IMG/VR virus record: IMGVR_UViG_3300008106_000048
Span: 1-33,239 of that record
Source: a virus
Strand: one strand, 5' to 3'
Length of the DNA stretch: 33,239 nucleotides
Part shown: positions 14,680-27,298 of the stretch, piece by piece
Position numbering within the stretch: position 1 is the stretch's first letter
How the letters are laid out: each line of letters begins with the position of its first letter
Notes under the pieces: model-generated
Seen by the model: only the letters and a program-made list of their open reading frames with translations
Database searches by the model: none
Told to the model about the DNA's origin: nothing
Made by a program: the position numbers and the translations under genes

Positions 14680-14761
14680 TGTGACACTTTTTAAACTGGC
14701 ACATTGGGACTTGACATTTTTACCTTTTTATGGTAGGTGTGCCAATTTATAAACTGGCACA
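14680..14761. repeat. Palindrome ladder a, two 24-bp sites
   Basis: Sites at 14680-14703 (TGTGACA form) and 14738-14761 (TGTGCCA form) are 58 bp apart, with a TTGACA between them. The consensus is TGTGnCA-N10-TGnCACA. Confidence 0.85.
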
Positions 14762-14776
14762 TTTCCTATTGACATT

Positions 14777-15052
14777 TTACGCTTTTCTTGCTAGAGATTC
14801 TCGGTAAAGCTCTTCACTCAATATCCAAAAATGAGCATTAGGTAAACCGAAAGCATTCTCCAATTTGCAAGCAATACTATCAGTAATCTCGGTTTCACTT
14901 GCCAGCAGTCGAAAGGCTTCCTTTCTTGACATCTCCATCCGATTAGCGAATATTCGTAAGGGTATTCCTCTGTCTCTCATGATGTAGTCAATGATTTCTC
15001 CAGGGGGCGAAAACCAATCTGATGTGTATTCGTTCTCAATTGTGTTAGTCAT
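14777..15052 (-). CDS. HigA-like XRE-family HTH protein
   Basis: The 91-aa protein has the HigA antitoxin layout. A PPGEIIDYIMRDRGIPL segment (about residues 16-32) leads into a helix-turn-helix (IFANRMEMSRKEAFRLLAS), then the antitoxin-type SIACKLENAFGLPNAHFW. Such proteins repress their own promoter and usually neutralise a HigB RNase. No HigB-like gene is adjacent, so this may be a solitary regulator, and it is a candidate binder of the palindromes. It has its own promoter at 15089-15117 and a GGAGTTCC ribosome site. A paralogue lies at 16394-16714. The last codons and the downstream DNA are shared with the KTSC gene's end, a sign of recombination. Confidence 0.75.
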   Translation of the reverse strand: MTNTIENEYTSDWFSPPGEIIDYIMRDRGIPLRIFANRMEMSRKEAFRLLASETEITDSIACKLENAFGLPNAHFWILSEELYRESLARKA

Positions 15053-15088
15053 AGATTGTGGAACTCCTTTGTTTTTCTTTATATTACT

Positions 15089-15117
15089 ATTATGTCATCT
15101 TTTTTTAGATTTGTCTA
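15089..15117 (-). promoter_or_regulatory. Cassette promoter for 14777-15052
   Basis: TAGACA, 17 bp, CATAAT on the minus strand. A palindrome site lies 7 bp upstream of the -35 box. Confidence 0.8.
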
Positions 15118-15124
15118 TGCCATA

Positions 15125-15344
15125 TGTGACACTTTCTAAACTGGCGCTGTGACACTTTATGAACTGGCACATTTCCTATTGACATTTTTACTTTTTTGTG
15201 GTAGATGTGACACTTTATGAACTGGCACATTTCCTATTGACATTTTTACTTTTTTGTGGTAGATGTGACACTTTATAAACTGGCACATTACCTATTGACA
15301 TTTTTACTTTTTGTGGTAGATGTGCCAATTACTAAACTGGCACA
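15125..15344. repeat. Palindrome ladder b, five sites
   Basis: Sites start at 15125 (partial right end), 15148, 15206, 15264 and 15321. The last four are 57-58 bp apart, and each is followed by T-rich DNA with TTGACA 7 bp away. Together with the promoter at 15089 this fills the 327-bp gap between genes. Confidence 0.9.
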
Positions 15345-15379
15345 TTTCCTATTGACTCTTTAGTAGTTTGCCGTCTTCA

Positions 15380-16135
15380 CTAAAAACGGTATTCACGATA
15401 TAAGTTTTCAAATTGTGCTGAGTTTTGTGTGATTGTATATCTCAAGAAATCTCGACGCAGAAAGACAATCAATCCTAGATTAGATTGCTTAATTTCTGTT
15501 AATTTATTCGGTAAATGATCGATCAAAGCTTTCAAGGCTTTTCGTTGAAGGTTATCGTTATCATTGGCGACATTAGGAAAAGCATCTTCTAATCCATCAA
15601 TTAAAAATATAATCTTCGAGTTTTTTTGTTTAAGGTATTCATGCAGTTTATTTAGTTGATAATTTTCCTGATTATACCCTAAAACTCTCGAAAATTCTTT
15701 GACCCAAAATTTTGCCCAATCTACCTCGTTCCAATCTTGATTAGATAGAGACTGCGTTATTCTGTCTTTAAAATCCGATATGGAAAATTGACAATTATGA
15801 TTGAGTGTATTATTTACATTTAGCCGTGCTTGTTCAAGAATATTTTTGGACTTATCATTTAAATTTTGTGATTGGAGTAAAGGAAATATTAAACCCAGAT
15901 TTTCTCCGGAATTTTCTTGATTTTTAGGATCAACTTTATTTAAAAAATTTCCCCAAGACTGTAGGCGAGATAGCTGAATATAATTAAAGGTTTTTCCCGC
16001 ATCTTTAGCACCAATTGAGATAACTACCGGTAGTTTATCTTGAAAATTACTAGCCATGTTTTTTAATAGCTGTTCATAACCGACAGCTAATAAGTCAGAG
16101 GATTTAACTTCAATCAGGAAGGTGTCGTAACTCAT
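15380..16135 (-). CDS. Chimeric gene: KTSC-like N-terminus fused to a P-loop ATPase fragment
   Basis: The first 24 residues (MSYDTFLIEVKSSDLLAVGY) copy the start of the KTSC protein at 17243-17491. The rest is unrelated to KTSC. It has a Walker A (ISIGAKDAGKTFNYIQL, about residue 40), a long helical insert, and a Walker B (KIIFLIDGLEDAF, about residue 174), followed by LGLIVFLRRDFLRY, as in STAND/KAP-like ATPases. The 251-aa protein stops shortly afterwards, so it probably represents only the front of a larger cellular ATPase. It uses the standard cassette promoter and GGAACTCC-type leader. The chimera suggests capture of a host gene fragment behind an existing promoter and start codon. Function is unclear. 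Confidence 0.6.
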   Translation of the reverse strand: MSYDTFLIEVKSSDLLAVGYEQLLKNMASNFQDKLPVVISIGAKDAGKTFNYIQLSRLQSWGNFLNKVDPKNQENSGENLGLIFPLLQSQNLNDKSKNILEQARLNVNNTLNHNCQFSISDFKDRITQSLSNQDWNEVDWAKFWVKEFSRVLGYNQENYQLNKLHEYLKQKNSKIIFLIDGLEDAFPNVANDNDNLQRKALKALIDHLPNKLTEIKQSNLGLIVFLRRDFLRYTITQNSAQFENLYREYRF

Positions 16136-16166
16136 GCGGAACTCCTTTGTTTTTCTTTATATTACT

Positions 16167-16195
16167 ATTATGTCATCTTCTTTTAGAATTGTCTA
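16167..16195 (-). promoter_or_regulatory. Cassette promoter for 15380-16135
   Basis: TAGACA, 17 bp, CATAAT on the minus strand, with a palindrome 7 bp upstream. Confidence 0.8.
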
Positions 16196-16202
16196 TACCG
16201 TA

Positions 16203-16347
16203 TGTGACACTTTCTAAACTGGCATAATTTGACTTGACATTTTGACCTTTTTGTGGTAGATGTGACTCTTTTTAAACTGGTTCATTACTTCCTGCATAAA
16301 CTTTGCTTTTTGTTAAGTCCTATTGTGCCAATTAATAAACTGGCACA
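16203..16347. repeat. Palindrome ladder c, three sites
   Basis: Sites at 16203-16226, 16261-16284 (weaker right half, GGTTCA) and 16324-16347 (TGTGCCA form). The first two are 58 bp apart. Confidence 0.85.
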
Positions 16348-16393
16348 TCTGGACTTGACATTTACGCTTTTTTTGTTACTTTTAGCACTTGTA

Positions 16394-16714
16394 CTACTGT
16401 ACAGTCGTATCTGTTTCGGATAGTACGATTGAACTATTGTTCCCTAGATTCTGCATTACATTGTTTTGATTTGCTAGAGATTCTCGGTAAAGTCTTTCAC
16501 GCTCTTTCCAAAAATGAGCAGTAGGTAAGCCGAAAGCATACTGCAATTTGCAAGCAATACGACCTGTAATCTCAGTTTCACTTGCCAGCAGTCGAAAGGC
16601 TTCCTTTCTTGACATTTCCATCCGATTAGCAAATATTCGTAAGGGTATTCCTCTCTCTTTCAAGATGTCGGAAATGGTTTCTCCAGGGGGTGTGTTCTCA
16701 ATTGTGTTAGTCAT
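16394..16714 (-). CDS. HigA-like HTH protein with a foreign C-terminal tail
   Basis: This is a paralogue of 14777-15052. The segment GIPLRIFANRMEMSRKEAFR and the following LLASETEIT are identical, with small changes elsewhere. The N-terminus is shorter (a deletion before PPGE). The last ~24 residues (NVMQNLGNNSSIVLSETDTT) are encoded by DNA homologous to the 3' end of the KTSC gene at 17243 but read in another frame. The gene is therefore a recombinant between a HigA-like cassette and a KTSC cassette. The DNA-binding part is intact. It has its own promoter at 16751-16779. No toxin partner is seen. Confidence 0.75.
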   Translation of the reverse strand: MTNTIENTPPGETISDILKERGIPLRIFANRMEMSRKEAFRLLASETEITGRIACKLQYAFGLPTAHFWKERERLYRESLANQNNVMQNLGNNSSIVLSETDTTVQ

Positions 16715-16750
16715 AGATTGTGGAACTCCTTTGTTTTTCTTTATATTACT

Positions 16751-16779
16751 ATTATGTCATCTTTTTTTAGATTTGTCTA
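16751..16779 (-). promoter_or_regulatory. Cassette promoter for 16394-16714
   Basis: TAGACA, 17 bp, CATAAT on the minus strand, practically identical to the promoter at 15089. Confidence 0.8.
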
Positions 16780-16958
16780 TGCCATATGTGACACTTTCTA
16801 AACTGGCTCATGTATAAGTATTCTTTGCGTACCGTTGCAGGACTTTGATTTTCAACTTCACATTCTACTTTTTTCTGGTTAGGTATCGTAGCCATAAATA
16901 AAAGTCCGATAATTAATACTGAAAATAATACTGAAATTATTAGGTCGATAGTTTTCAT
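16767..16958 (-). CDS. Small membrane protein, 63 aa, C-terminus running into the repeat
   Basis: MKTIDLIISVLFSVLIIGLL gives one clear N-terminal membrane helix, followed by a short polar tail. The final ~14 residues (MSQFRKCHIWHRQI) are translated from the palindrome and promoter repeat of the next cassette, so the original 3' end has probably been lost by recombination at the repeat. The gene overlaps the -35 region of the downstream cassette promoter. Its ribosome site (GGAGTTCC) and promoter at 16990 are standard for this block. Confidence 0.6.
   Translation of the reverse strand: MKTIDLIISVLFSVLIIGLLFMATIPNQKKVECEVENQSPATVRKEYLYMSQFRKCHIWHRQI
16787..16810. repeat. Palindrome site, single
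   Basis: TGTGACA half, N10, TGGCTCA half. It lies upstream of the promoter at 16751 and inside the 3' end of the membrane-protein gene. Confidence 0.75.
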
Positions 16959-16989
16959 ATGGAACTCCTGTGTTTTTCTCTATATAACT

Positions 16990-17018
16990 ATAATGTCATC
17001 TTTTTTTAGATTTGTCTA
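16990..17018 (-). promoter_or_regulatory. Cassette promoter for 16767-16958
   Basis: TAGACA, 17 bp, CATTAT on the minus strand, with a palindrome 7 bp upstream. Confidence 0.75.
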
Positions 17019-17025
17019 TACCGTA

Positions 17026-17228
17026 TGTGACACTTTCTAAACTGGCATAATTGGACTTGACATTTTGACTTTTTTGTGGTAGCTATGACACTTTATGAAC
17101 TGGTACATTTTCACCTGCATTGACTTTACTCTCTGTCAAGTCCTATTGTGACACTTTCTAAACTGGCATAATTGGACTTGACATTTTTACTTTTTTGTGG
17201 TAGCTGTGCCAATTAATAAACTGGCACA
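17026..17228. repeat. Palindrome ladder d, four sites
   Basis: Sites start at 17026, 17084 (degenerate, TATGACA/TGGTACA), 17147 and 17205. Spacings are 58, 63 and 58 bp. Confidence 0.85.
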
Positions 17229-17242
17229 TTACCTATTGACAT

Positions 17243-17491
17243 TTACGCTTTTCTTGCTACTTTTAACTCTTGTACTAGAGTACAATCGTATTTGTTACGA
17301 ATAGTACGATTGAACTCTCGTCCTATAGATTCTGCATTACAGAGATTTTGATACACCTGAATTGGTACTCCTGTATATTTGTACTCACTTCCAGATTTAA
17401 ATACTATTCTTAATGTTTCGCTAATTGGCTCATAACCTACAAACATTAAGACAGAGGATTCAACTTCAAACAGGGGGATGTCGTAAATCAT
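17243..17491 (-). CDS. KTSC-domain protein
   Basis: The 82-aa protein is almost entirely a KTSC domain: V-E-S-S near residue 9, then VGYEPISETLRIVFKSG, EYKYTGVPIQVYQNL, and NAESIGREFNRTIRNKYDC. The conserved G-Y, F-x-S-G, Y-x-Y-x-x-V-P and A-x-S-x-G-x-x-F elements are all present. The domain is found alone or next to nucleic-acid enzymes in bacteria and phages; its activity is not firmly known. This copy is the intact parent of the fragments at 15380-16135 (5' part) and 16394-16714 (3' part). The promoter is at 17523 and the ribosome site is GGAGTTCC. Confidence 0.85.
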   Translation of the reverse strand: MIYDIPLFEVESSVLMFVGYEPISETLRIVFKSGSEYKYTGVPIQVYQNLCNAESIGREFNRTIRNKYDCTLVQELKVARKA

Positions 17492-17522
17492 TTGGAACTC
17501 CTGTGTTTTTCTTTATATTACT

Positions 17523-17551
17523 ATTATGTCATCTTTTTTTAGAAATGTCTA
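17523..17551 (-). promoter_or_regulatory. Cassette promoter for 17243-17491
   Basis: TAGACA, 17 bp, CATAAT on the minus strand, with a palindrome 7 bp upstream. Confidence 0.8.
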
Positions 17552-17558
17552 TACCCTA

Positions 17559-17875
17559 TGTGACACTTTCTAAACTGGCACATTACCTATTGACATTTTT
17601 ACTTTTTGTGGTAGATGTGCCAATTACTAAACTGGCACATTACCTATTGACATTTTGACCTTTTTATGATAGCTGTGACACTTTCTAAACTGGCACATTT
17701 CCTATTGACAGTTTGACTTTTTTGTTGTAGCTGTGACACTTTATGAACTGGCACATTTCCACCTGCATTGACTTTACTCTTTGTTAAGTCCTATTGTGCC
17801 AATTTATAAACTGGCACATTACCTATTGACATTTTTACCTTTTGTGATAGATGTGCCAATTAATAAACTGGCACA
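17559..17875. repeat. Palindrome ladder e, six sites
   Basis: Sites start at 17559, 17616, 17674, 17732, 17795 and 17852, at spacings of 57-58 bp with one of 63. They alternate TGTGACA and TGTGCCA left halves and nearly all end TGGCACA. T-rich DNA with TTGACA lies between most of them. There is no gene in this 398-bp stretch. Confidence 0.9.
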
Positions 17876-17889
17876 TTACCTATAGACAT

Positions 17890-18033
17890 TTAGCTAAACA
17901 ATAGTTTTTTTAACCATTTAGCTTTTTTTTTCCAATTATTTGTGGGCATAAAATTATAGATCACTACTATTTCTTTACCCCGTTTAGCCACAATATGTTT
18001 AGCAGATAATTTGATTCTGAGTGGGTTAATCAT
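17890..18033 (-). CDS. Small basic protein, 47 aa
   Basis: ATG at 18033 follows the block's standard leader (GGAGTTTC) and a promoter at 18065-18093. This supports the gene despite its size. The product is basic, with a strand-prone first half (RIKLSAKHIVAKRGKEIVVI) and a Lys/Trp-rich end (NNWKKKAKWLKKLLF). It could bind nucleic acid or membrane, but the family is unknown. It is wedged between ladders e and f. Confidence 0.6.
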   Translation of the reverse strand: MINPLRIKLSAKHIVAKRGKEIVVIYNFMPTNNWKKKAKWLKKLLFS

Positions 18034-18064
18034 TTGAAACTCCTGTGTTTTTCTTTATATTACT

Positions 18065-18093
18065 ATTATGCCATCTTTTTTTAGAAACGTCTA
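18065..18093 (-). promoter_or_regulatory. Cassette promoter for 17890-18033
   Basis: TAGACG, 17 bp, CATAAT on the minus strand, with a palindrome 7 bp upstream. Confidence 0.75.
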
Positions 18094-18100
18094 TACCCTT

Positions 18101-18240
18101 TGTGACACTTTCTAAACTGGCATAATTTGACTTGACATTTTTACTTTTTTGTGGTAGATGTGACAATTAATAAACTGGCACAATCGGTATTGACATTTTT
18201 ACTTTTTTGTGGTAGATGTGCCAATTTATAAACTGGCACA
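18101..18240. repeat. Palindrome ladder f, three sites
   Basis: Sites start at 18101, 18159 and 18217, exactly 58 bp apart. Confidence 0.9.
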
Positions 18241-18259
18241 TCTGGACTTGACATTTAGC

Positions 18260-18604
18260 TTAGATAAGTCTTAGTATCTCTTGATACTTAGCATAGTTTT
18301 TATCGTCCTCCCAATTTACACTTAAATAGTGTCCATCACTTAACTCAATCTGACAATCATAATCCGTTACTGAACTAAAATCAACACTCCAAAAGCCATG
18401 AGGTTCATAAATACCTATAGCCCTCAACCATTGATTTATCACCTCTCTCGCTTCTTTTTCGGATTCTCCTAATCCTAATCCTAAGTTTTCTAATTCCCCT
18501 ACGTCATACTTGCCTAACTCTATCTCCATTGTACGAGTCTTACCATTCCAATCTTGCCCTAATATTCTGAACCAAGTTAGTTCACCGTTTACCGTGTTAG
18601 TCAT
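18260..18604 (-). CDS. Paralogue family A, member 1 (114 aa)
   Basis: This is an unknown acidic protein. It shares with 26278-26670 the segments TWFRILGQDW, GELENLGLGLGESEKEAREV and VTDYDCQIELSDG, plus a D-W-E-D-D-x-N-Y-A-K-Y end. The more distant copy is 26875-27204. The pattern (strands, then a Glu-rich helix, then strands ending in a charged turn) suggests a compact alpha/beta domain. The start MTNT repeats that of the HigA-like genes, pointing to an exchanged 5' end. AGGAGTTCC precedes the ATG. There is no standard CATAAT promoter directly upstream, unlike most neighbours. Role unknown; small acidic early phage proteins often act on host enzymes, but that is only an analogy. Confidence 0.75.
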   Translation of the reverse strand: MTNTVNGELTWFRILGQDWNGKTRTMEIELGKYDVGELENLGLGLGESEKEAREVINQWLRAIGIYEPHGFWSVDFSSVTDYDCQIELSDGHYLSVNWEDDKNYAKYQEILRLI

Positions 18605-18652
18605 TTGGAACTCCTGGTGATACCTCTTAAACTAGCACTTTTGGAATAGGCT

Positions 18653-18853
18653 CTAAGGTTTCTTAGGCGGTTCATCATTTTGTTTAGGATGTTCATCACT
18701 TTGTTTGGCTAAGGTGATAACTGACGTTATTAGCACCGCTGTTATTTCTACAACGTTTCGCCCGAATTTGTCAGGGTTTTGAATAGCCAATACGCTAACC
18801 CCTAATAAGCCTACTGAAGACATTATTACTAACCAATTTTTTATTAGATTCAT
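18653..18853 (-). CDS. Small two-span membrane protein, 66 aa
   Basis: Residues 6-25 (NWLVIMSSVGLLGVSVLAIQ) and 35-50 (VVEITAVLITSVITLA) form two membrane segments, followed by a charged proline tail (DEHPKQNDEPPKKP) that would face the cytoplasm. The layout resembles small holins or immunity peptides, but no family is recognised. It begins just after a terminator hairpin (18862-18892) and has no SD sequence, so expression may rely on read-through from the upstream 22-aa ORF. Confidence 0.6.
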   Translation of the reverse strand: MNLIKNWLVIMSSVGLLGVSVLAIQNPDKFGRNVVEITAVLITSVITLAKQSDEHPKQNDEPPKKP

Positions 18854-18861
18854 AACTTTTA

Positions 18862-18892
18862 TTTTAATAAAATAGGACGGGATACACCGTCC
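18862..18892 (-). terminator. Minus-strand terminator or attenuator
   Basis: GGACGG and CCGTCC pair around 6 bases, followed on the minus strand by TATTTTATT. It lies between the 22-aa ORF and the membrane gene. Confidence 0.6.
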
Positions 18893-18901
18893 TTATCTTG
18901 A

Positions 18902-18970
18902 CTATTTAGAAGGTTTAACCGGCTTTGGAGTAACCTTTTTAATCTTCTTACCGCACGATTTCTTTTTCAT
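18902..18970 (-). CDS. Tiny basic ORF, 22 aa
   Basis: MKKKSCGKKIKKVTPKPVKP is very basic. The ORF is followed at once by the hairpin terminator at 18862-18892, but no SD sequence or promoter is visible. It could be a leader peptide for the membrane gene. The call is weak. Confidence 0.3.
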   Translation of the reverse strand: MKKKSCGKKIKKVTPKPVKPSK

Positions 18971-18995
18971 TGTAGCTTTATAAATAAACACTCAC

Positions 18996-19391
18996 TTAAA
19001 TATTGAGCGAACTATTTATCCGTTTTAGATTTTTATTTTCTCTGATTAGCTTGGATTTCCAAAGTCCTAAGTTTATCTCAAATATTTTATTAACTAAACC
19101 TAAGTCCTCACCTGAATCACTTTTTATATCTAAACGGTAATTTTGGTCGTAGGAGTACCAGTAAGAAAGTTCCCAGTAAGGAAAATCACTTAATGTAACA
19201 TTAGATTCTATTCCTAAATTTGAACAATACTCACAAACATTTTCTAATTTATCCGCCGTCAACTCTAACCATCCAAAATTATCATAGTCTTCTATGTCAT
19301 CTAGTGATACCTGACACTTAGTGTTTAAGTCAATGACCCCCGCATCAAACAAATAAAGTCGTCGTGTATAGCTTAATCTTACTTTAATCAT
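18996..19391 (-). CDS. Paralogue family B, member 1 (131 aa)
   Basis: This is an unknown acidic protein that shares with 19763-20110 the blocks LFDAGVIDL, EDYDNFGWLEL, CEYC-x-x-LGIESN and a Tyr-rich Y-W-Y-S-x-D-x-N-Y segment. The conserved C-E-Y-C pair and tryptophans suggest a stable small domain; the C-x-x-C spacing alone is not enough to claim metal binding. The promoter at 19426-19454 is the second promoter type of the block (TTGACA-17-CATAAT), with a palindrome at 19471. The ribosome site is AGGGG. Probably a cassette gene of the early block; function unknown. Confidence 0.75.
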   Translation of the reverse strand: MIKVRLSYTRRLYLFDAGVIDLNTKCQVSLDDIEDYDNFGWLELTADKLENVCEYCSNLGIESNVTLSDFPYWELSYWYSYDQNYRLDIKSDSGEDLGLVNKIFEINLGLWKSKLIRENKNLKRINSSLNI

Positions 19392-19425
19392 TGTCTAACC
19401 CCTGTACTTTTTGGCTTATTTCTCT

Positions 19426-19454
19426 ATTATGCCACTGTTCTATTGAATTGTCAA
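19426..19454 (-). promoter_or_regulatory. Promoter for 18996-19391
   Basis: TTGACA, 17 bp, CATAAT on the minus strand. Confidence 0.85.
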
Positions 19455-19470
19455 GGAGATTTAATTAGAT

Positions 19471-19494
19471 TGTGACAGTTTTTTAATTGTCACA
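19471..19494. repeat. Palindrome site, opposite orientation
   Basis: A TGTGACA / TGTCACA form whose internal asymmetry (G at position 8, T at 17) is reversed relative to the ladder sites. It lies 16 bp upstream of the -35 box at 19449-19454. Confidence 0.8.
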
Positions 19495-19509
19495 ATCCCT
19501 CTGGCTCTC

Positions 19510-19671
19510 TTATTTTTCCTGAATTTGTACCCTTGCACTATCTCTTAATGTACCACCATTTTTGAAATGGTTATACTGCTCGATTACTCCCCAGAGAAAC
19601 ATAAGAATCAGCAGTTCTATCAATGCTATTCTATGTAAGCCGTTAAACTGTGAAAACAATTTTTTTCGCAT
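19510..19671 (-). CDS. Small membrane protein, 53 aa
   Basis: The ATG at 19671 encodes a basic N-terminus (MRKKLFSQFNGLHR), one membrane helix (ALIELLILMFLWGVI) and a polar tail (TLRDSARVQIQEK). The ORF is compact and ends 16 bp before the palindrome at 19471. There is no clear SD sequence or consensus promoter, so it is either weakly expressed or read through from 19763-20110 past the intervening terminator. Confidence 0.45.
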   Translation of the reverse strand: MRKKLFSQFNGLHRIALIELLILMFLWGVIEQYNHFKNGGTLRDSARVQIQEK

Positions 19672-19726
19672 TCTTTAAATGGTACAAACATGATAATTTA
19701 CCCTTGCACTCGATTAGACACAAATT

Positions 19727-19761
19727 AAAAGGTTGAGCTATTGCTCTCAACCTTTTTTTTT
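19727..19761. terminator. Bidirectional terminator
   Basis: AAAAGGTTGAGC and GCTCTCAACCTTTT pair around TATT. The T-run is perfect on the plus strand and shorter on the minus strand. It ends the gene at 19763-20110. Confidence 0.8.
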
Positions 19762-19762
19762 G

Positions 19763-20110
19763 TTAGCTTTCGTTTTTAATTAATTTTAACCCCTCTAGCT
19801 TTAAGTTGATTTCTCCAATTTTAACCTCTAAGTTTTCAGACTGGTCACTTTTTAACTCTAAATGGTAGTTCATGTCCGCAGAATACCAGTAACGAAAATC
19901 ACCTAATGAACCATTAGACTCTATACCTAACTCTGCACAATATTCACAAATTGCCTCTAAATTTTTACTCGTTAACTCTAACCATCCAAAATTATCATAG
20001 TCTTCTATTTCTGATAGGGATACCTGAGACTTAGTTTTTAAGTCAATAACCCCAGCATCAAACAAAATAAAGAGGTCGTCGATATTGTGATAGCTTAATC
20101 TTACAAACAT
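19763..20110 (-). CDS. Paralogue family B, member 2 (115 aa)
   Basis: This protein is similar over its length to 18996-19391 (LFDAGVIDLKTKSQVSL, EDYDNFGWLELTS, CEYCAELGIESN), with a shorter Tyr-rich loop and an acidic end (KSDQSENLEVKIGEINLKL). The two copies are neighbours separated by a small membrane gene, so they arose by local duplication. The promoter is at 20144-20172 and the ribosome site is GGAGTC. No function can be assigned. Confidence 0.75.
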   Translation of the reverse strand: MFVRLSYHNIDDLFILFDAGVIDLKTKSQVSLSEIEDYDNFGWLELTSKNLEAICEYCAELGIESNGSLGDFRYWYSADMNYHLELKSDQSENLEVKIGEINLKLEGLKLIKNES

Positions 20111-20143
20111 AATTGGTGACTCCTATTTTTTGCTTATGTGTCT

Positions 20144-20172
20144 ATTATGCCACTGTTCTATTGAATTGTCAA
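20144..20172 (-). promoter_or_regulatory. Promoter for 19763-20110
   Basis: TTGACA, 17 bp, CATAAT on the minus strand. Confidence 0.85.
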
Positions 20173-20189: not shown

Positions 20190-20213
20190 TAGGACAGTTT
20201 ATAAACTGGCACA
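20190..20213. repeat. Palindrome site, single
   Basis: A GGACAG left half and an AAACTGGCACA right half, the same as at 21276. It is followed 7 bp later by TTGACT on the plus strand. Confidence 0.75.
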
Positions 20214-21275: not shown

Positions 21276-21299
21276 TGGGACAGTTTATAAACTGGCACA
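21276..21299. repeat. Palindrome site between divergent promoters
   Basis: A GGACAG / CTGGCACA form located between the promoters of 20932-21177 and the RNR small subunit, 7 bp from the plus-strand -35 box. Confidence 0.75.
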
Positions 21300-21456: not shown

Positions 21457-22227
21457 ATGTCTGATCAATTAATTTTTCAACGTCTATTAAACGCTAAACG
21501 AGATTGGGCAGTTATGCCTATTCAAAACGGTCACTGTGTTCGGGGTGCGGAAAAAACTATCCAAAAAGCATTAGAGGCTCGACACTTAGAGTTACCCGTT
21601 GGTCAATGGATTAAAGAGTGTGCTAGTCGAGAGAGAAAATGGTTATCTGATTACGGTATTTTATTATTAGCCTCTAATTTTAAAGACGAAAAAAAACATG
21701 ACTCTCAGTTAAATTATGCCTATTCAAATATCTCTTTAGCTAATCTTACTGATAAACTACAAATTGAGTCTGAATCTCGTTCTTTAGTCTCTAAATGGTT
21801 AAAAATGGGAGAGAAATATCACCCCGTTTTAGTTACTTGGGTCGCCGAACAATCTATCTTTTTTCCGGTCTTAACTTTATACCGCCGTTTAGGTGGTACT
21901 CAGTTAGCTATGGTTTCCGCAGAGATTAGCAGGGACGAGACAATTCACGCTAGAACTAACGGCACTATCGCTAAAATGTTAGGACTTTCTATTCCCCCTG
22001 ACTTGGATGACCTTAGACAGGAAACCATCGAGTGGCTTGTTTCAGACCTTGATGATTCTGGGATTGAAGGTAAATACGGTCAATCTAAAAATTATATTGA
22101 CCAGTCTTTTCAATTACTTCATCAAGGTTCTTACGCTAAGTTTAAAGATACCTCCTTCGCTGTTTTGCCCGGTTTCTTTGAAACACATCGTAGTCATTTA
22201 CCTAAATATGGTAAGGTAGCTAACTAA
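21457..22227 (+). CDS. nrdB: Ribonucleotide reductase small (beta) subunit
   Basis: This subunit makes the radical used by the large subunit. The 256-aa protein has ferritin-like diiron motifs in order: E78-K-K-H81, E131 (WVAEQSIFF) and E161-T-I-H164 within EISRDETIHARTNG, which closely matches R2 R-D-E-A-L-H. A first acidic ligand is probably E45. The residue at the canonical radical-Tyr place, four after the first His, is Leu (a Tyr is two further), so the metal or radical chemistry may differ. At 256 aa it is shorter than cellular R2 (~320-375). It is the only plus-strand gene in this region, with a 100-nt leader and no clear SD sequence. Its partner is at 10832-12364. Confidence 0.82.
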   Translation: MSDQLIFQRLLNAKRDWAVMPIQNGHCVRGAEKTIQKALEARHLELPVGQWIKECASRERKWLSDYGILLLASNFKDEKKHDSQLNYAYSNISLANLTDKLQIESESRSLVSKWLKMGEKYHPVLVTWVAEQSIFFPVLTLYRRLGGTQLAMVSAEISRDETIHARTNGTIAKMLGLSIPPDLDDLRQETIEWLVSDLDDSGIEGKYGQSKNYIDQSFQLLHQGSYAKFKDTSFAVLPGFFETHRSHLPKYGKVAN

Positions 22228-22241
22228 CAATTTACATCTAA

Positions 22242-22276
22242 AAATAGGGTAACTTTTTTTAGGCTACCCTATTTCT
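22242..22276. terminator. Convergent bidirectional terminator
   Basis: AATAGGGTA and TACCCTATT pair, with T/A-runs on both strands. It separates the RNR small subunit from the convergent gene 22280-22711. Confidence 0.8.
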
Positions 22277-22279
22277 TTG

Positions 22280-22711
22280 TCAAGGTGTTTTTCTTACCTC
22301 GAACATCTCATTTATTGCATCAAATATTTGAGGTAATACTATCTGATTGATTCTGTCAACCTCTGCTTTATTTTTGATTACCTCTGCTAACGGGTTTACC
22401 GTTACATGAGAACCACCTCTACCTAATATTTCCGCTACTTCCTTTAATCCATAAGCTGTTTTCGCTAGTTCGTAAAACTTCCATAGGTTATCCCCTCTCA
22501 ATTTTACGTTTAAAGTGTAGTCTCTTTCTAGAGCCTCTTGCCAGTTGATATTCCCATAGTTGCTCAAGTGGTAATGTTCCCCTTTTGCCCTTAAATACCC
22601 GAAAGACCAGTACCAATCACAATCCCATGTCGGGGCGGCTATATATATTAGTTTTCCGTCTTTTTTTCGTTTTCCCAGATAGTGTATTTCTGTCCATTTT
22701 GTGCTATACAT
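22280..22711 (-). CDS. Phage-type hypothetical protein with WDCDWYWSFGY motif, 143 aa
   Basis: The N-terminal half contains KDGKLIYIAAPTWDCDWYWS and FGYLRAKGEHYHL, a pattern I associate with uncharacterised phage proteins (W-D-C-x-W-Y-W-x-F-G-Y). The C-terminal half is helical (WKFYELAKTAYGLKEVAEIL, then EVIKNKAEVDRINQIVLPQI). The Cys/His/Trp-rich front could bind a metal or ligand, but no activity is known. It has its own promoter at 22744-22772. Confidence 0.6.
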   Translation of the reverse strand: MYSTKWTEIHYLGKRKKDGKLIYIAAPTWDCDWYWSFGYLRAKGEHYHLSNYGNINWQEALERDYTLNVKLRGDNLWKFYELAKTAYGLKEVAEILGRGGSHVTVNPLAEVIKNKAEVDRINQIVLPQIFDAINEMFEVRKTP

Positions 22712-22743
22712 TGTCTTTTTCCTCTTTGTTTGCTTATGTACCC

Positions 22744-22772
22744 ATTATGCTATCTTTTCAGTCCTGTGTCAA
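22744..22772 (-). promoter_or_regulatory. Promoter for 22280-22711
   Basis: TTGACA, 17 bp, CATAAT on the minus strand. No palindrome lies beside this one. Confidence 0.8.
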
Positions 22773-22950
22773 TACTTTTCGTATTTTATTTTCTTATCCC
22801 TATCCGCCCTTGCTATAACTTTACCTTATATAATTTTTTCTTATCTTTGTTATTAGTTTTGCTTATATACAAACCTGATACACATACCTGCATTATTCAT
22901 TCTTTATTACACAACTCCTACATATTTCTGCCTTGTTTGGTATAGACAAG

Positions 22951-22979
22951 AAAAGGTGAGTACATTAACTCACCCTTTT
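22951..22979. terminator. Terminator after 22987-23568
   Basis: AAAAGGTGAGT and AACTCACCCTTTT pair around ACATT. It would work from either strand. Confidence 0.75.
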
Positions 22980-22986
22980 GTTTATG

Positions 22987-23568
22987 TTAGTTTTCCTCAG
23001 TTCGGCTTAAAATGTCCTCTAGTCTTTTCAGTAGCAATTCCTTCTCAGACTCGCTAAAATTAAAACTAATACTAAAATCGTCTAGATTCGCAAAATCGTT
23101 AGCAAAATCCTCAATTAACTCACCTAACTCATCACTGGTTAATACACACTTATTATCCAGACTCGTTACTCGTTCATCATCTTTTAACTCAGGTATTGCT
23201 ATTAACAATTCCTTAAAACACTCAATATATCCCCAATTTGACCAATACTCATACCACTGCTCATATTCTAAGTCAGACAAGTCTTGTTCATCTAGTATTG
23301 AGTAGTCTTCCAAGCTTTTCTTTTTCTCATCTATTGCTTCTAATAGCAAAGAATCTTTATGAATCATTAAAGCTTTAAATTCCATGCAACCCCCAAAACT
23401 AAACTCTTCTAAGTCTGGAAATAATCGATGCCATACTCGATAATTACTCATATCTACTGAATCACTCTGCTCTGATTCAGCCGCTACTACATAGAAGTCC
23501 GTTAAATCCATCCCTAAATAATTTGGTGCTTCTGTCCATTTTTTAAGATATTGCGGTTGATAGTTCAT
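22987..23568 (-). CDS. Acidic hypothetical protein, 193 aa
   Basis: The largest of the small-gene block apart from the ATPase chimera. It is very acidic throughout, with helix-rich stretches (SLLLEAIDEKKKSLEDYSIL, then DLSDLEYEQWYEYWSNWGYI) and an acidic C-terminal pair of helices (ELGELIEDFANDFANL, SESEKELLLKRLEDIL). Four Cys residues are scattered, so no zinc site is evident. There is no membrane segment. Such acidic, aromatic-rich phage proteins can mimic DNA or bind host enzymes; this is only a possibility. The promoter is at 23600 and the ribosome site is GGGAGT. Confidence 0.7.
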   Translation of the reverse strand: MNYQPQYLKKWTEAPNYLGMDLTDFYVVAAESEQSDSVDMSNYRVWHRLFPDLEEFSFGGCMEFKALMIHKDSLLLEAIDEKKKSLEDYSILDEQDLSDLEYEQWYEYWSNWGYIECFKELLIAIPELKDDERVTSLDNKCVLTSDELGELIEDFANDFANLDDFSISFNFSESEKELLLKRLEDILSRTEEN

Positions 23569-23599
23569 GATGTACTCCCGTTTTTTTGCTTATGTACCT

Positions 23600-23628
23600 A
23601 TTATGTCATTTATCTCTTGGATTGTCAA
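23600..23628 (-). promoter_or_regulatory. Promoter for 22987-23568
   Basis: TTGACA, 17 bp, CATAAT on the minus strand. Confidence 0.85.
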
Positions 23629-23645
23629 GGGGTTTTTTGGTAGGT

Positions 23646-23669
23646 TGTGACAATTTATAAACTGTCACA
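23646..23669. repeat. Palindrome site with compensatory change
   Basis: TGTGACA at the left and TGTCACA at the right. Both half-sites have changed together relative to TGTGCCA/TGGCACA, which supports a symmetric binding site or an RNA stem. Confidence 0.85.
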
Positions 23670-23718
23670 TATACTCTTGACTTTTTGGCTTTTTTTACTG
23701 ATAACTGATAACTCCTAC

Positions 23719-23910
23719 TTAATCTTCTATATCCCAACTATTTTCGAGTAATCCCAGATTATCGCTAACTATCTCTATCAATTGGTTCCCGTCATTTTCT
23801 ATGCTGATTTGAGTGTATAAATCGTCAAACATTGACGACGCTTCTTTTCTGTTTTTTGCCTTAACCGTGACCTCAATTGTGAGGTTTAAACTCCCTGTAT
23901 ATTCCTTCAT
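23719..23910 (-). CDS. Small acidic protein, 63 aa
   Basis: A short alpha/beta protein: a strand (GSLNLTIEVTVKA), a helix (NRKEASSMFDDLYTQI), a strand, and an acidic end (ENSWDIED). The pattern strand-helix-strand with A-K-N-R-K-E-A resembles small phage proteins that are otherwise uncharacterised. It is the last gene of a probable seven-gene operon that starts at the promoter 25752. TAGGAGT precedes the ATG. Heptamer repeats separate it from the next gene upstream. Confidence 0.65.
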   Translation of the reverse strand: MKEYTGSLNLTIEVTVKAKNRKEASSMFDDLYTQISIENDGNQLIEIVSDNLGLLENSWDIED

Positions 23911-23933
23911 TTTTTTACTCCTATTATGTGTTA

Positions 23934-23979
23934 ATTACTGATAACTGATAACTGATAACTGATAACTGATAACTGATTA
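23934..23979. repeat. ACTGATA heptamer tandem repeat
   Basis: Six consecutive ACTGATA-like units (reverse TATCAGT) lie between two genes, with shorter runs near 23696-23711, 24331-24348, 24587-24602 and 24746-24768. Heptamer arrays of this kind are common in cyanobacterial intergenic DNA. Confidence 0.8.
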
Positions 23980-23980
23980 A

Positions 23981-24304
23981 TTAAAAGTCCTTAATAATTA
24001 CACCACCCTCAAATTGAATTACGGTCGTCCGATCCTCCAAATATTTAAGTGCCTCCGCTTCTATCTCATCCTCATCCTCATCATCGGGGGGAATAAAATC
24101 ATAATGTTCCGCCGCCTCTAGGACGCTATCATATTCTGAAAAATCACACCGCAAAGCGACTCTATCAAATTTGATAGGCTTATCACTATCCTCTAAGTTT
24201 TCTAGGTACTCAATTAAAGCTGTAGCACCCTCCCATGACCAACCAGCACTATGATCATATTTCAGTAATTTAATAGCTTCATCGGTGCTTAATTTTTGGT
24301 ACAT
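23981..24304 (-). CDS. Acidic hypothetical protein, 107 aa
   Basis: Starts MYQKLSTDEAIKLLKYD, with a helical first half including SWEGATALIEYLENLEDSDK. The middle reads RVALRCDFSEYDSVLEAAEHYDF, then an acidic D-D-E-D-E-D-E-I-E linker, and finally RTTVIQFEGGVIIKDF. The last segment (a strand, GG, a strand) looks like the end of a small alpha/beta fold. Proteins with an F-x-E-Y-x-S-x-x-E-A-A centre occur in phages without known function. TAGGAGT ribosome site. Part of the 25722-23719 operon. Confidence 0.65.
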   Translation of the reverse strand: MYQKLSTDEAIKLLKYDHSAGWSWEGATALIEYLENLEDSDKPIKFDRVALRCDFSEYDSVLEAAEHYDFIPPDDEDEDEIEAEALKYLEDRTTVIQFEGGVIIKDF

Positions 24305-24356
24305 TTTTCTACTCCTAAATGGTTAATGTTTACCGATAACTGATAACTGGAACTGA

Positions 24357-24560
24357 TTAAAAATAAGGCTCGATCAAAACTTCTAAATGTTTCTCGTAGC
24401 TAGGGAAAACTTCATAGTTAGGATTGCCATTTTCCCATAATTCCTTAAGGGTATCGACTTGTTTTAAGAAGATTTCAGCATCCTCACCCTGTAGTAAAAT
24501 GTCGGTTTCCCCATTGGTCAATTTCACTGCATAGCCTAGATCAAAAAAGGTAAAGTTCAT
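24357..24560 (-). CDS. Small acidic protein, 67 aa
   Basis: MNFTFFDLGYAVKLTNGETD gives two strands, followed by the helix-rich ILLQGEDAEIFLKQVDTLKE and a final EKHLEVLIEPYF. It has no membrane segment or Cys. TAGGAGT precedes the ATG by 10 bases. It belongs to the same operon, flanked on both sides by short ACTGATA repeats. Unrecognised. Confidence 0.65.
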   Translation of the reverse strand: MNFTFFDLGYAVKLTNGETDILLQGEDAEIFLKQVDTLKELWENGNPNYEVFPSYEKHLEVLIEPYF

Positions 24561-24608
24561 CTTTTTGGTACTCCTAAATAATGGCTACTGATAACTGATA
24601 CCTGGTCA

Positions 24609-24710
24609 TTAATCCTCTATCTCCCAATCGGCTGTGTCGATATGAGTATCCCAATCAATGAGTTCAGGTATCTCATCCTCTATGTCATACCTGTTTAACT
24701 CTATGTCCAT
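24609..24710 (-). CDS. Tiny acidic ORF, 33 aa, possible paralogue fragment
   Basis: The first residues (MDIELNRYDIEDE) resemble the family A segment IELNKYDIGELEN of 26278-26670, and the end (DTADWEIED) resembles the end of 23719-23910. It may be a recombinant remnant of two block genes rather than an active gene. There is no SD sequence. Confidence 0.35.
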   Translation of the reverse strand: MDIELNRYDIEDEIPELIDWDTHIDTADWEIED

Positions 24711-24767
24711 ATAGCTTAAACTGATAAGCGGGTAGATATTTTTTTACTGATAACTGATACCTGATAA

Positions 24768-25064
24768 TTAATGCTTCACAACTTTCTCAACATCCACATC
24801 ATACCACGAAAAAAGGAGCGTATAAGTCCTTGAAATAGAATCAAAGACATAAGCATCTATTCCGATTTTTCGATCATCTGGCATCCAAGCCTTTAATGTT
24901 TTCCCCGTTGATTTTAGGTGAGAAATTACCTGCTTATCGGTCAACTCAGCTAAGTCAAAGCTAATCCGTGTGTTGTCAGTTGTTTCGTCGCACGGAATAA
25001 GTTTTCCGTCCTTATCCCTTACCTTAACCAAAAAGCTGTAATTTCTTTTGTTGTCCTGTGTCAT
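24768..25064 (-). CDS. Hypothetical protein, 98 aa
   Basis: MTQDNKRNYSFLVKVRDKDG and later RISFDLAELTDKQVISHLKS, WMPDDRKIGIDAYVFDSISR and LLFSWYDVDVEK indicate a mainly beta protein. It has no Cys cluster or membrane segment. AGGAGG 5 bases before the ATG is the best ribosome site in this operon. It starts 10 bp after the stop of the preceding paralogue gene. Unrecognised. Confidence 0.65.
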   Translation of the reverse strand: MTQDNKRNYSFLVKVRDKDGKLIPCDETTDNTRISFDLAELTDKQVISHLKSTGKTLKAWMPDDRKIGIDAYVFDSISRTYTLLFSWYDVDVEKVVKH

Positions 25065-25073
25065 GATACCCTC

Positions 25074-25406
25074 CTATAATTGGGCTATGTTTTTGCTTCT
25101 TACCTTTATGGCAGTTCTGGGTATTCTTTTCAGAACCTTTAGATTATACCCGTAATGATTTTCTAGGTAATTTTTGTCCTCTAGATATTGACTTTCAGTA
25201 GCAAGTTTTGAACCCTTAATTACTACTTCAGGATTGCATGGACTCCAAGAATTAATATCACCATATTCTCCGACTCTTTGCCATGAATCACAATCTAAGA
25301 ATGACAGTGATACTATTTCCTCTGGGAATATTGCGATTATGCCTTGTTTAGGGTCTATATCTTTATTCCATTTACGGAATATTACTTTAGTTTTTTGAGT
25401 GTCCAT
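25074..25406 (-). CDS. Paralogue family C, member 1 (110 aa)
   Basis: This is a tandem duplicate of 25387-25722. Both share TKVIFRKWNK, QGIIAIFPE, a C-x-x-W-x-x-V-G-E segment, the helix YLE-x-K-NYLENHYGY and a final R-x-x-A-I-x-x-R motif. The start codon overlaps the 3' end of the upstream copy by 20 bases. Proteins with an F-R-K-W start and G-I-I-A-I-F-P are seen as uncharacterised proteins in phages and plasmids. Acts presumably as a small cytoplasmic protein; role unknown. Confidence 0.75.
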   Translation of the reverse strand: MDTQKTKVIFRKWNKDIDPKQGIIAIFPEEIVSLSFLDCDSWQRVGEYGDINSWSPCNPEVVIKGSKLATESQYLEDKNYLENHYGYNLKVLKRIPRTAIKVRSKNIAQL

Positions 25407-25722
25407 TACCTATCTCCCGGATTTTTTGTTGTCTGATTTCTATGGCATTGTAACGTAGTCTTTGGTTAACCTCTAACTTGTACCCGTAATGATTTTCTAG
25501 GTAATTTTTGATTTCTTGGTATTCAATCTCTTTAGCAGGTTTTGAGTTTTTGATTACCTCCGCAGGGTCACAAGCACCATGTTCACCTACCCATTCCCAC
25601 GCACTACAAGTATAACTTGACATTGTTCCAATATCTTCAGGGAATATTGCGATAATTCCTTGTTCTTTGTCCACCGACTTATTCCATTTACGGAATATTA
25701 CTTTAGTGATTTCAGTCTCCAT
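25387..25722 (-). CDS. Paralogue family C, member 2 (111 aa)
   Basis: First gene of the operon read from the promoter 25752-25780. It has the same domain as 25074-25406 (VIFRKWNKSVDKEQGIIAIF near the start, then CSAWEWVGEHG, AKEIEYQEIKNYLENHYGY), with a different C-terminal tail (IREIGNGHSKN). The two copies differ mainly in the central loop, where this one is shorter. The ribosome site is AGGAGT. Confidence 0.75.
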   Translation of the reverse strand: METEITKVIFRKWNKSVDKEQGIIAIFPEDIGTMSSYTCSAWEWVGEHGACDPAEVIKNSKPAKEIEYQEIKNYLENHYGYKLEVNQRLRYNAIEIRQQKIREIGNGHSKN

Positions 25723-25751
25723 TTATTTACTCCTAACTTACTAATGTCTCT

Positions 25752-25780
25752 ATTATGTCACAATCTGCATTACTTGTCAA
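25752..25780 (-). promoter_or_regulatory. Promoter of the 25722-23719 operon
   Basis: TTGACA, 17 bp, CATAAT on the minus strand, overlapping the 3' end of the zinc-ribbon gene. Confidence 0.8.
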
Positions 25781-26078
25781 GTGTGTCAAATTCTAAACTG
25801 TCCCCGAATTTACCATTAAATTTTTTGACCCCTGAAAAGGTTCTTTTGCAGTCCTTACATTGAAACATTGGGTATTTCTCTCCCTTAGCTGTTTCTTTAT
25901 ACGCCCTGATTACCACATCATAACTTCCACAATGTGGACACTGGCGACCCTCTAGAATTTTGTAGAACTTATCACAGGTACTCAGAAATTCTTGATCTGT
26001 TACTGTTTTGTTACCCCATTCTACTATTAATGGTAACAATCTCTTTACTAACGGTTCTCTCGAATGTGACGGTGACAT
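25770..26078 (-). CDS. Zinc-ribbon protein, 102 aa
   Basis: The N-terminal half is helical (LVKRLLPLIVEWGNKTVTDQ). The C-terminal half is a zinc ribbon: CPHCGSYDVVIRAY followed about 20 residues later by FQCKDCKRTFSG. The C-x-x-C...C-x-x-C pattern and the R-T-F-S-G end resemble the InsA-type zinc ribbon of IS1 transposases and related DNA-binding ribbons. No catalytic transposase domain or inverted ends are present, so it is more likely a DNA- or RNA-binding regulator. It has its own promoter at 26109. The 3' end overlaps the next promoter and a degenerate palindrome. Confidence 0.75.
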   Translation of the reverse strand: MSPSHSREPLVKRLLPLIVEWGNKTVTDQEFLSTCDKFYKILEGRQCPHCGSYDVVIRAYKETAKGEKYPMFQCKDCKRTFSGVKKFNGKFGDSLEFDTLDK

Positions 26079-26108
26079 TTTAGCTCCTGTTTCTTTGCTT
26101 ATGTACCT

Positions 26109-26137
26109 ATTATGGCATTCTTTAACTTCTTTGTCAA
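26109..26137 (-). promoter_or_regulatory. Promoter for 25770-26078
   Basis: TTGACA, 17 bp, CATAAT on the minus strand, with a palindrome 6-7 bp upstream. Confidence 0.85.
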
Positions 26138-26143
26138 TTTGTT

Positions 26144-26167
26144 TGTGACACTTTTCAAATTGGCATA
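26144..26167. repeat. Palindrome site, single
   Basis: TGTGACA, N10, TGGCATA; the centre is TTTTCAAA instead of TTTnTAAA. Confidence 0.75.
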
Positions 26168-26277
26168 TCTTTGTTCTCTCTACGTTACTTTCCTTTTTTT
26201 ATGTAACCCCCCCCCCCTATTTTGGTATTTTTAAATTACCTTTTCGGGGGTGTTCTCAGGATTTATTGAGGTTTATA

Positions 26278-26670
26278 CTATTCCTCATCACCATACATTG
26301 CTTCATACATTGCCTCTTGGTAACTAAGCATTATTTCTCGATACTTAGCATAGTTTGTATCGTCTTCCCAATCTAGACTAAAATAACTTCCATCACTTAG
26401 CTCAATCTGACAATCATAATCCGTTACAGAACTAAAATCAGGATTCCAAAAGCCTTGTGGGTCATAAATATCGGCGGCCAACAACCATTGGTTTATCACC
26501 TCTCTCGCTTCTTTTTCGGATTCTCCTAATCCTAATCCTAAGTTTTCTAATTCTCCTATGTCATACTTGTTTAACTCTATGTCCAGTGTACAAGTCTTAC
26601 CAAACCAATCTTGCCCTAGTATTCTGAACCATGTTACATCCCCGTTATCGAGTGCCTTTGTGTAAGTCAT
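26278..26670 (-). CDS. Paralogue family A, member 2 (130 aa)
   Basis: This is the closest relative of 18260-18604, identical in long stretches (GELENLGLGLGESEKEAREV, VTDYDCQIELSDG). It has a longer C-terminus repeating Glu-Ala-Met-Tyr (EAMYEAMYGDEE). The high identity of paralogues 8 kb apart suggests recent duplication or gene conversion. AGGAGT ribosome site. Unknown function. Confidence 0.75.
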   Translation of the reverse strand: MTYTKALDNGDVTWFRILGQDWFGKTCTLDIELNKYDIGELENLGLGLGESEKEAREVINQWLLAADIYDPQGFWNPDFSSVTDYDCQIELSDGSYFSLDWEDDTNYAKYREIMLSYQEAMYEAMYGDEE

Positions 26671-26705
26671 TTTTGTTACTCCTGTGTTTCTTTGCTTATG
26701 TACCT

Positions 26706-26734
26706 ATTATGGCATCCTTCATCTACTTTGTCAA
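26706..26734 (-). promoter_or_regulatory. Promoter for 26278-26670
   Basis: TTGACA, 17 bp, CATAAT on the minus strand, with a palindrome 6-7 bp upstream. Confidence 0.85.
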
Positions 26735-26740
26735 CTTGTT

Positions 26741-26764
26741 TGTGACACTTTTCAAATTGGCATA
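26741..26764. repeat. Palindrome site, single
   Basis: Identical to the site at 26144, including flanking DNA, so this whole promoter segment is duplicated. Confidence 0.75.
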
Positions 26765-26874
26765 TCTTTGTCCTCTCTATGTTACTTTACTTTTTTATGT
26801 AACCCCCTATTTTGGTCTTTTTTAATTACCACTTCGGGGGTTTTCTCAGGATTTTTTGAGGTTTATACTAATCC

Positions 26875-27204
26875 TCATAACCACGGTAGATTGGCTAAAC
26901 GACCCGTGCAGTCCATATATTCCCACTCGCTATCTTCGTTTAGCCAATCTAACGTAACATTACTCCCATCTCCTAACTCTATGTCAGCTTCAAAGTCTAA
27001 GATTATTTGAAAATCCCCGCTATTCTTTGCTAACCATCCTTCAATTACCTCTCTTTTTTGTTCTTTGCTCAATTCCGCACTTAATCCTGAGTCTTCTAAA
27101 TTACCTACGTCATAGCGTTTTAACTCTTTAAACATTGCACAAGTCTGCCCGTACCAATTTAATCCTACGATTCTGATTATGCTTATGATTTCTGTGTACT
27201 TCAT
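26875..27204 (-). CDS. Paralogue family A, member 3, divergent (109 aa)
   Basis: This protein keeps the family A order: R-I-V-G-L-N-W-x-G-Q-T-C, then KRYDVGNLEDSGLSAELSKE, REVIEGWL, an E-A-D-I-E-L-G-D-G segment and a W-x-x-E-D end. It is clearly older than the other two copies. AGGAGG ribosome site, promoter at 27239. It is the last gene of the block before the 1-kb gene-free stretch. Confidence 0.7.
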   Translation of the reverse strand: MKYTEIISIIRIVGLNWYGQTCAMFKELKRYDVGNLEDSGLSAELSKEQKREVIEGWLAKNSGDFQIILDFEADIELGDGSNVTLDWLNEDSEWEYMDCTGRLANLPWL

Positions 27205-27238
27205 TTTTGACCTCCTATGGTCTTTTCTCTATGTACCT

Positions 27239-27268
27239 ATTATGTCACTATTTATCTTGACTTGTCCC
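27239..27268 (-). promoter_or_regulatory. Promoter for 26875-27204
   Basis: GGGACA, 18 bp, CATAAT on the minus strand, weaker than its relatives. Confidence 0.6.
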
Positions 27269-27274
27269 GCTCTA

Positions 27275-27298
27275 GTGGACACTTTCAGAATTGGCACA
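27275..27298. repeat. Palindrome site, degenerate
   Basis: A GTGGACA left half and a TTGGCACA right half. It is the last of the 31 sites in this direction. Confidence 0.6.

Follow-up and report, generated by a model that had tools for sequence, protein, structure and literature searches.

Closest described systems

A 24-letter palindrome with the consensus TGTGnCAnTT-N4-AAnTGnCACA recurs in a viral sequence of 33,239 bases (IMG/VR record IMGVR_UViG_3300008106_000048; this whole stretch is called the window). Most probably, a dimeric activator binds this palindrome upstream of the early promoters of cyanophages, with the site centred near -54. Known phage systems resemble it in part. The late promoters of phages P2 and P4 have a dyad near -55 and a poor -35, and depend on the small zinc-binding activators Ogr and Delta. 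The T4-type promoter/stem-loop (PeSL) cassettes precede small early genes of hyperplastic regions, and the palindrome in them forms a terminator stem-loop in the RNA. Lambdoid phages and mycobacteriophages have operator/stoperator sets, in which many operator copies answer to one regulator. T4 middle promoters also have a poor -35, which is replaced by a MotA box near -30.

The window element is similar to the P2/P4 late promoters in its dyad near -55, its use with a poor -35, and a small zinc-binding protein, which here is a candidate. However, the P2 dyad is TGT-N12-ACA and acts late, whereas the palindrome is TGTGnCA-N10-TGnCACA and belongs to early genes; the dyad spacing thus differs, and the zinc-ribbon protein of the window has no Ogr/Delta family match. 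Like PeSL, it is a repeated regulatory cassette ahead of small early genes. In contrast to the RNA stem-loop of PeSL, it lies upstream of the promoter, and no covariation between its halves was seen that would indicate an RNA stem-loop. A palindrome-free relative, G005, does have a stem-loop before TTGACA. The many copies of one site recall operator/stoperator sets, but no repressor gene or lysogeny module is linked to them, they are present in the early block only, and their geometry is that of an upstream activator. As in MotA promoters, a poor -35 is combined with a putative activator box; the MotA box lies near -30, whereas the dyad here lies near -54 and is used early.

Published work regards the early promoters of cyanophages as ordinary sigma-70 promoters of the host type, and notes that MotA and AsiA are missing from T4-like cyanophages (PMC5780444). 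The Mic1 genome paper prints GTGCCAGTTYATAAAGTGTCACAATTAGAYTTGACA..., with 8 copies at 67,047-69,344, and a second repeated promoter motif with 10 copies (PMC7156551). One of the two motifs is part of the palindrome element and is the same DNA. The passages on these motifs present a repeated promoter and no palindromic operator, and do not include the other sites, the early-block restriction, the fixed geometry, or the sharing with T4-like cyanophages. An open-access search of the literature for the motif in cyanophages found the Mic1 papers only, and no account of the cross-phage element; an earlier description in a subscription paper is possible.

The palindrome in the window

The window comes from a Microcystis siphophage closely related to Mic1, of which it covers a part. 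It encodes a family A DNA polymerase of the mitochondrial type, 97.8% identical to that of Microcystis phage Mic1 (MN013189, 92,627 bp) with 96% of the query covered. The genes of the site-bearing block match Mic1 gp50-gp72. Because both the polymerase and the block genes match Mic1, this block of gene cassettes is the early block of a Mic1-like cyanophage; Microcystis, the host, is a bloom cyanobacterium.

Sites were scored on 16 defining positions (TGTGnCAnTTnnnnAAnTGnCACA; the core without flanks is TGTGCCAGTTTATAAACTGGCACA), and up to three mismatches were accepted. The window contains 18 sites with no mismatch, 26 with at most one, 29 with at most two, and 32 with at most three, compared to means of 0, 0, 0, and 0.2 in 60 dinucleotide shuffles. 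A looser palindrome pattern occurs 48 times, against 9.4 times in shuffles. All 32 sites are confined to 14680-27298. The first-pass annotation counted 31 copies in seven clusters and seven single sites; its total is nearly exact, but the layout consists of six clusters and nine single sites. It was right that every site is intergenic or at a gene end (those at 16787 and 25782 overlap the 3′ ends of open reading frames, ORFs), and its cluster period is recovered, as the spacings below 80 bp are 57 bp (three), 58 bp (ten), and 63 bp (three). The sites at 15125 and 15148 form an overlap-type pair 23 bp apart. At 25 of the 32 sites, TTGACA, matched in at least five of six positions, is found at a distance of exactly 7 bp on at least one strand, and at two more the distance is 6 bp, in line with the earlier description of most sites. 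In most clusters, the site closest to the gene is accompanied by a full promoter, TAGACA-17-CATAAT, on the strand of that gene.

Occurrence in Mic1-like and T4-like cyanophages

Mic1 has 47 sites, all between 57,329 and 72,125 in the early block (gp50-gp73), which corresponds to 3.07 per kb; none was found in the remaining 77 kb, and none inside genes. Wherever a Mic1 early gene has a site, the nearest one ends 68-80 bp ahead of the start codon. A third Mic1-like phage, G004 (contig 3300007094_000006), has 38 sites with identical spacings. Two distant relatives, G005 and G006, each with a polymerase 66% identical to that of Mic1, have 0 sites. In G005, the inverted repeat ATAAGGATTTCTTAT-N9-ATAAGAAATCCTTAT, a stem-loop, precedes TTGACA in place of the palindrome. 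The scan of related elements suggested in the first-pass annotation thus finds the sites conserved in Mic1 and G004 and absent from G005.

The same site is present in marine T4-like cyanophages (Kyanoviridae). An exact-pattern scan of IMG/VR gave at least 120 stretches, and among the matches listed 7 are Mic1-like and 113 are others. Of these other loci listed, 110 of 113 encode proteins like those of P-SSM2, S-PM2, Syn9, S-SSM7, Bellamy, or P-RSM4; the tally is a sample and a lower bound. Whole genomes contain 12 sites in P-SSM2, 11 in S-SSM7, 9 in P-RSM4, 8 in S-SKS1, 7 in S-PM2, 6 in P-HM2, 4 in P-SSM4, 3 in Syn9, and 1 in Bellamy, while a reversed-pattern control gives 0-1 in whole phage genomes. 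The counts are 0 in T4, P-SSP7, PSS2, S-TIM5, S-CBWM1, A-HIS1, MaMV-DC, and MaMV-DL01.

A strictly placed dyad in two unrelated phage groups offers a concrete and testable answer to how cyanophage early genes are told apart. The palindrome could also be a marker of early promoters in unannotated viral contigs, and a DNA bait for the protein with which infection begins in cyanobacteria that are abundant in the ocean and in blooms.

Promoter geometry and symmetry

Promoters, start sites, and binding are predictions in what follows, whereas site sequence, abundance, early-block restriction, fixed -35/-10 spacing, polarity, and sharing with Kyanoviridae were computed here. In 902 flanks of marine sites, an exact TATAAT starts at +30 in 111 and at +31 in 39, with at most 6 at any other offset, so that 150 of the 902 flanks have the upstream site at a fixed, phased distance of the class I-like kind. 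This is a palindrome-to-TATAAT distance of 29-30 bp. A TATAAT-like hexamer is present at +29 to +32 on at least one side of 364 of 513 marine sites (71%), compared to 4.4% per side at random. TTGACA (at least five of six) peaks at +8 in the marine flanks (n = 87), but a good -35 is often missing there, the mean match being 3.18 of 6 versus 2.41 in shuffled sequence. The -35 is thus weak in T4-like cyanophages and good in Mic1-like phages, whose early promoters have a near-consensus -35 and -10. If transcription starts 6-7 bp past the -10, the dyad centre would lie near -54. The two halves of marine sites are not equally conserved: the C at position 5 is kept in 84% of promoter-proximal and 58% of distal halves (discordant pairs, 62 versus 19).

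An upstream dyad at fixed phase, a weak -35, and a better conserved proximal half fit an activator that contacts polymerase, and for this reason the activator reading is preferred. In the proposed mechanism, a dimeric DNA-binding protein would grip both TGTGnCA halves, about two helical turns apart. From some 54 bp ahead of the start, the dimer would help the host RNA polymerase to engage a promoter of the TATAAT type, with either a good -35, as in Mic1-like phages, or a poor one, as in T4-like cyanophages. A single site could serve promoters on either side. Ladders of several sites would stand before immediately needed genes, and a single site before later early genes. We infer protein binding, activation in preference to repression, the start position, and the ladder role. 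One dimeric regulator for the whole block, as first proposed, is well supported: Mic1 and G004 have the sites too, and these keep to the early block and to a set position relative to promoters.

The sites could instead be operators of a phage repressor, in which case strong early promoters would fire through host polymerase and an early protein would then shut the block. The quick fall of Mic1 early transcripts, after 0.5-2 h (PMC11237433), agrees with this, as do the single operator common to many promoters and the near-consensus -35/-10 of Mic1-like phages. However, the site is at a fixed distance and beyond the core promoter, the -35 of T4-like cyanophages is weak where the site is present, and conservation is higher in the promoter-proximal half, as polymerase contact predicts. 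Searches by blastp and phmmer found no repressor or other regulator common to Mic1 and Kyanoviridae, and HigA-like genes are absent from Mic1 and G004. The operators or stoperators suggested in the first-pass annotation are therefore unlikely, and less likely than activation.

As a perfect 24-bp palindrome can fold as RNA and some marine sites adjoin GC-rich hairpins, the sites might also be RNA stem-loops or terminators at gene ends. The paired change reported at 23646 is present, with A in both halves, but it is not a sign of base pairing, since the halves over many sites vary independently or avoid complementarity; they agree no more often than by chance (0.47 versus 0.52; 0.25 versus 0.43). 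Compensatory pairing was looked for across relatives and none was seen. Most sites are moreover upstream of the promoter and thus outside its transcript, and an RNA role is very improbable.

Timing, ladders and duplication

By published RNA sequencing (RNA-seq), Mic1 gp49-gp73 are early except for gp61 and gp67, and gp49 and gp69-gp73 peak at 0.5 h and are immediate-early (PMC11237433). The upstream gaps of gp69, gp70, gp71, gp72, and gp73 contain 5, 18, 2, 4, and 4 sites, respectively. The remaining early genes have none or one, except for gp68 with four. Two or more upstream sites are thus found for 5 of 6 immediate-early genes and 1 of 17 other early Mic1 genes (Fisher p ~0.001).

Several observations weigh against an activator site. 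The immediate-early gp49 has no site, and gp68, with its four, is not immediate-early. The timing evidence is that of the Mic1 literature. The absence of sites from G005 indicates that the element is dispensable for such an early block. Inner ladder sites adjoin TTGACA facing away from the genes with no good -10, for which the model gives no account, and the 57-58 bp period, about 5.5 helical turns, places neighbouring sites on opposite DNA faces. No binder protein emerged from the phage and host searches. On the plus strand of 14680-18240, the ladder units keep a perfect TTGACA that is directed away from the genes and has no -10 behind it.

A unit of one site and its promoter is about as long as the ladder period, which may have its origin in tandem duplication. 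The cassettes of promoter and palindrome could even serve mainly recombination in a PeSL-like manner, by which small early genes are duplicated, swapped, and lost. In the window, the ladders and the regions upstream of genes repeat almost identically, duplicate copies of gp69/70, gp68/71, and gp73 exist in Mic1, and the marine sites are located in regions of small ORFans. Such a role leaves the 29-30 bp to TATAAT, the polarity, and the 16 positions conserved despite differing flanks without an account, and is improbable as the main function; recombination may be a by-product of the element. Mic1 (MN013189) also contains an unannotated second gp73 copy at 68674-68916 (99% identical) and a third KTSC copy at 67623-67796.

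The iterated palindromes could also be read as a partition centromere to which a ParB-like protein binds. The Mic1 genome paper names ParA and ParB genes (PMC7156551). Their window homologues at 15380-16135 and 6768-7463 have no match to the ParA ATPase or ParB families, and the Mic1 genes themselves showed no such domain in searches. The parS candidate given in that paper is a different palindrome (PMC7156551), and the sites studied here are promoter-locked and common to T4-like phages. The partition-type array raised in the first-pass annotation is hardly credible, and the published ParABS reading of Mic1 (gp05, gp82) appears doubtful from these comparisons.

Candidate binding proteins

Two HigA-like helix-turn-helix proteins are encoded on the minus strand at 14777-15052 and 16394-16714, and had been named as possible binders. 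Their distribution disfavours them: Mic1 (47 sites) and G004 (38 sites) lack them, whereas MaMV phages and G005, which have 0 sites, encode them. The zinc-ribbon protein (25770-26078, minus strand; 88% identical to Mic1 gp52), the other earlier candidate, is possible within Mic1-like phages only. Its gene is kept in all three of these phages and was not found in G005, which makes gp52 the best phage-encoded candidate there; no homologue was seen in Kyanoviridae. The protein has weak matches to other zinc ribbons, not to Ogr/Delta. Predicted structures are of low confidence, with a predicted local distance difference test (pLDDT) of 58 for the zinc-ribbon protein and 66 for a gp73-like protein.

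A blastp search of all Mic1 ORFs against Syn9, S-PM2, and P-SSM2 gave matches for Dam, NrdA, and PhoH only, besides a weak one for MazG, and no shared regulator. A phmmer search of the early proteins against Kyanoviridae adds only the KTSC protein, with marginal scores. In a Pfam scan of 25 phage records, KTSC was found in Mic1-like phages, P-SSP7 gave a weak match, and the site-bearing Kyanoviridae gave none; it is regarded as cargo and not as a shared regulator.

In 201 picocyanobacteria, only 12 sites with at most one mismatch were found, and the promoter-level pattern occurred 6 times versus 1 in the control. Five sites are present in the metagenome-assembled genome G011; at four of them TTGACA lies exactly 7 bp off, and the fifth has TTGCCT. 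The 293 genomes of its order gave 16 matches in 10 genomes and 0 in controls. In these two genome sets the sites are scattered, and a chromosomal regulon that would place them ahead of genes in most hosts is not seen. Another cyanobacterial genome, G305 (L254 1514-1710), has four related sites upstream of a sucrose-synthase-like gene, three at 57-bp spacing and the fourth 59 bp on, with TTGACA 7 bp away. Together, G011 and G305 make host use of the site possible. A plasmid search found no similar DNA.

The binder may well be phage-encoded, and could also plausibly be a host factor; one carried in the virion is rather unlikely. A host protein is a fitting option because of the immediate-early use and the sharing by unrelated phages. 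Unrelated cyanophages may use one host protein, or unrelated-looking phage proteins may have equal specificity. It is somewhat doubtful that freshwater siphophages and marine T4-like myophages share the site because an undescribed host protein, in the cell before infection, reads it and has been taken over as a universal early activator of cyanophages.

Site layout and neighbouring features

Cluster 1 (14680-14761) marks the left edge of the early block and consists of two sites, 14680 and 14738, with a spacing of 58 bp. Cluster 2 (15125-15344) has sites at 15125, 15148, 15206, 15264, and 15321, and 15125 is the promoter-proximal site of the minus-strand gene 14777-15052; an example of the early-gene core promoter, TAGACA-17-CATAAT, occupies 15089-15118 on the minus strand, 7 bp from it. 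Cluster 3 (16203-16347; sites 16203, 16261, 16324) is upstream of gene 15380-16135, cluster 4 (17026-17228; 17026, 17084, 17147, 17205) of ORF 16767-16958, and cluster 5 (17559-17875; 17559, 17616, 17674, 17732, 17795, 17852) of the KTSC gene 17243-17491, all on the minus strand. Cluster 6 (18101-18240) comprises 18101, 18159, and 18217.

The single site at 16787-16810 is promoter-proximal for the second HigA-like gene and has TAGACA-17-CATAAT on the minus strand. The site at 19471-19494 is perfect, and that at 20190-20213 has two mismatches. The site at 21276-21299 lies between divergent promoters, of which the plus-strand one (TTGACT and TATACT, five of six at +32) leads to an nrdB-like gene at 21457-22227. 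Both halves of the site at 23646-23669 are TGTGACA. A weak site with three mismatches (25782-25805) overlaps the zinc-ribbon ORF at its 3′ end and is upstream of gene 25387-25722, and the site at 26144-26167 is upstream of the zinc-ribbon gene, with a minus-strand TTGACA 6 bp off. The sites at 26741-26764 and 27275-27298 (weak, three mismatches) are upstream of genes 26278-26670 and 26875-27204. Genes 25387-25722, 26278-26670, and 26875-27204 are all on the minus strand.

Outside the block, an ORF for an HNH endonuclease (4393-5064) splits the pol gamma-like DNA polymerase gene (2731-6030) into two ORFs, in the manner of a homing insertion. Mutually similar inverted-repeat structures are found at 13688-14535 and 29084-30334, one on each side of the early block; their arms are up to 170 bp long with 92% complementarity and 560-910 nt apart. 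Palindromes of the form TAAAAC-N15-GTTTTA, related to these large inverted repeats, recur in Mic1 and G004. A protein with an FGE-sulfatase domain is encoded at 31621-32253, near the right end of the window. Tandem repeats of the heptamer GATAACT are present between small genes at 23930-24780, and according to the Mic1 paper this heptamer repeat is also found in the host genome (PMC7156551).

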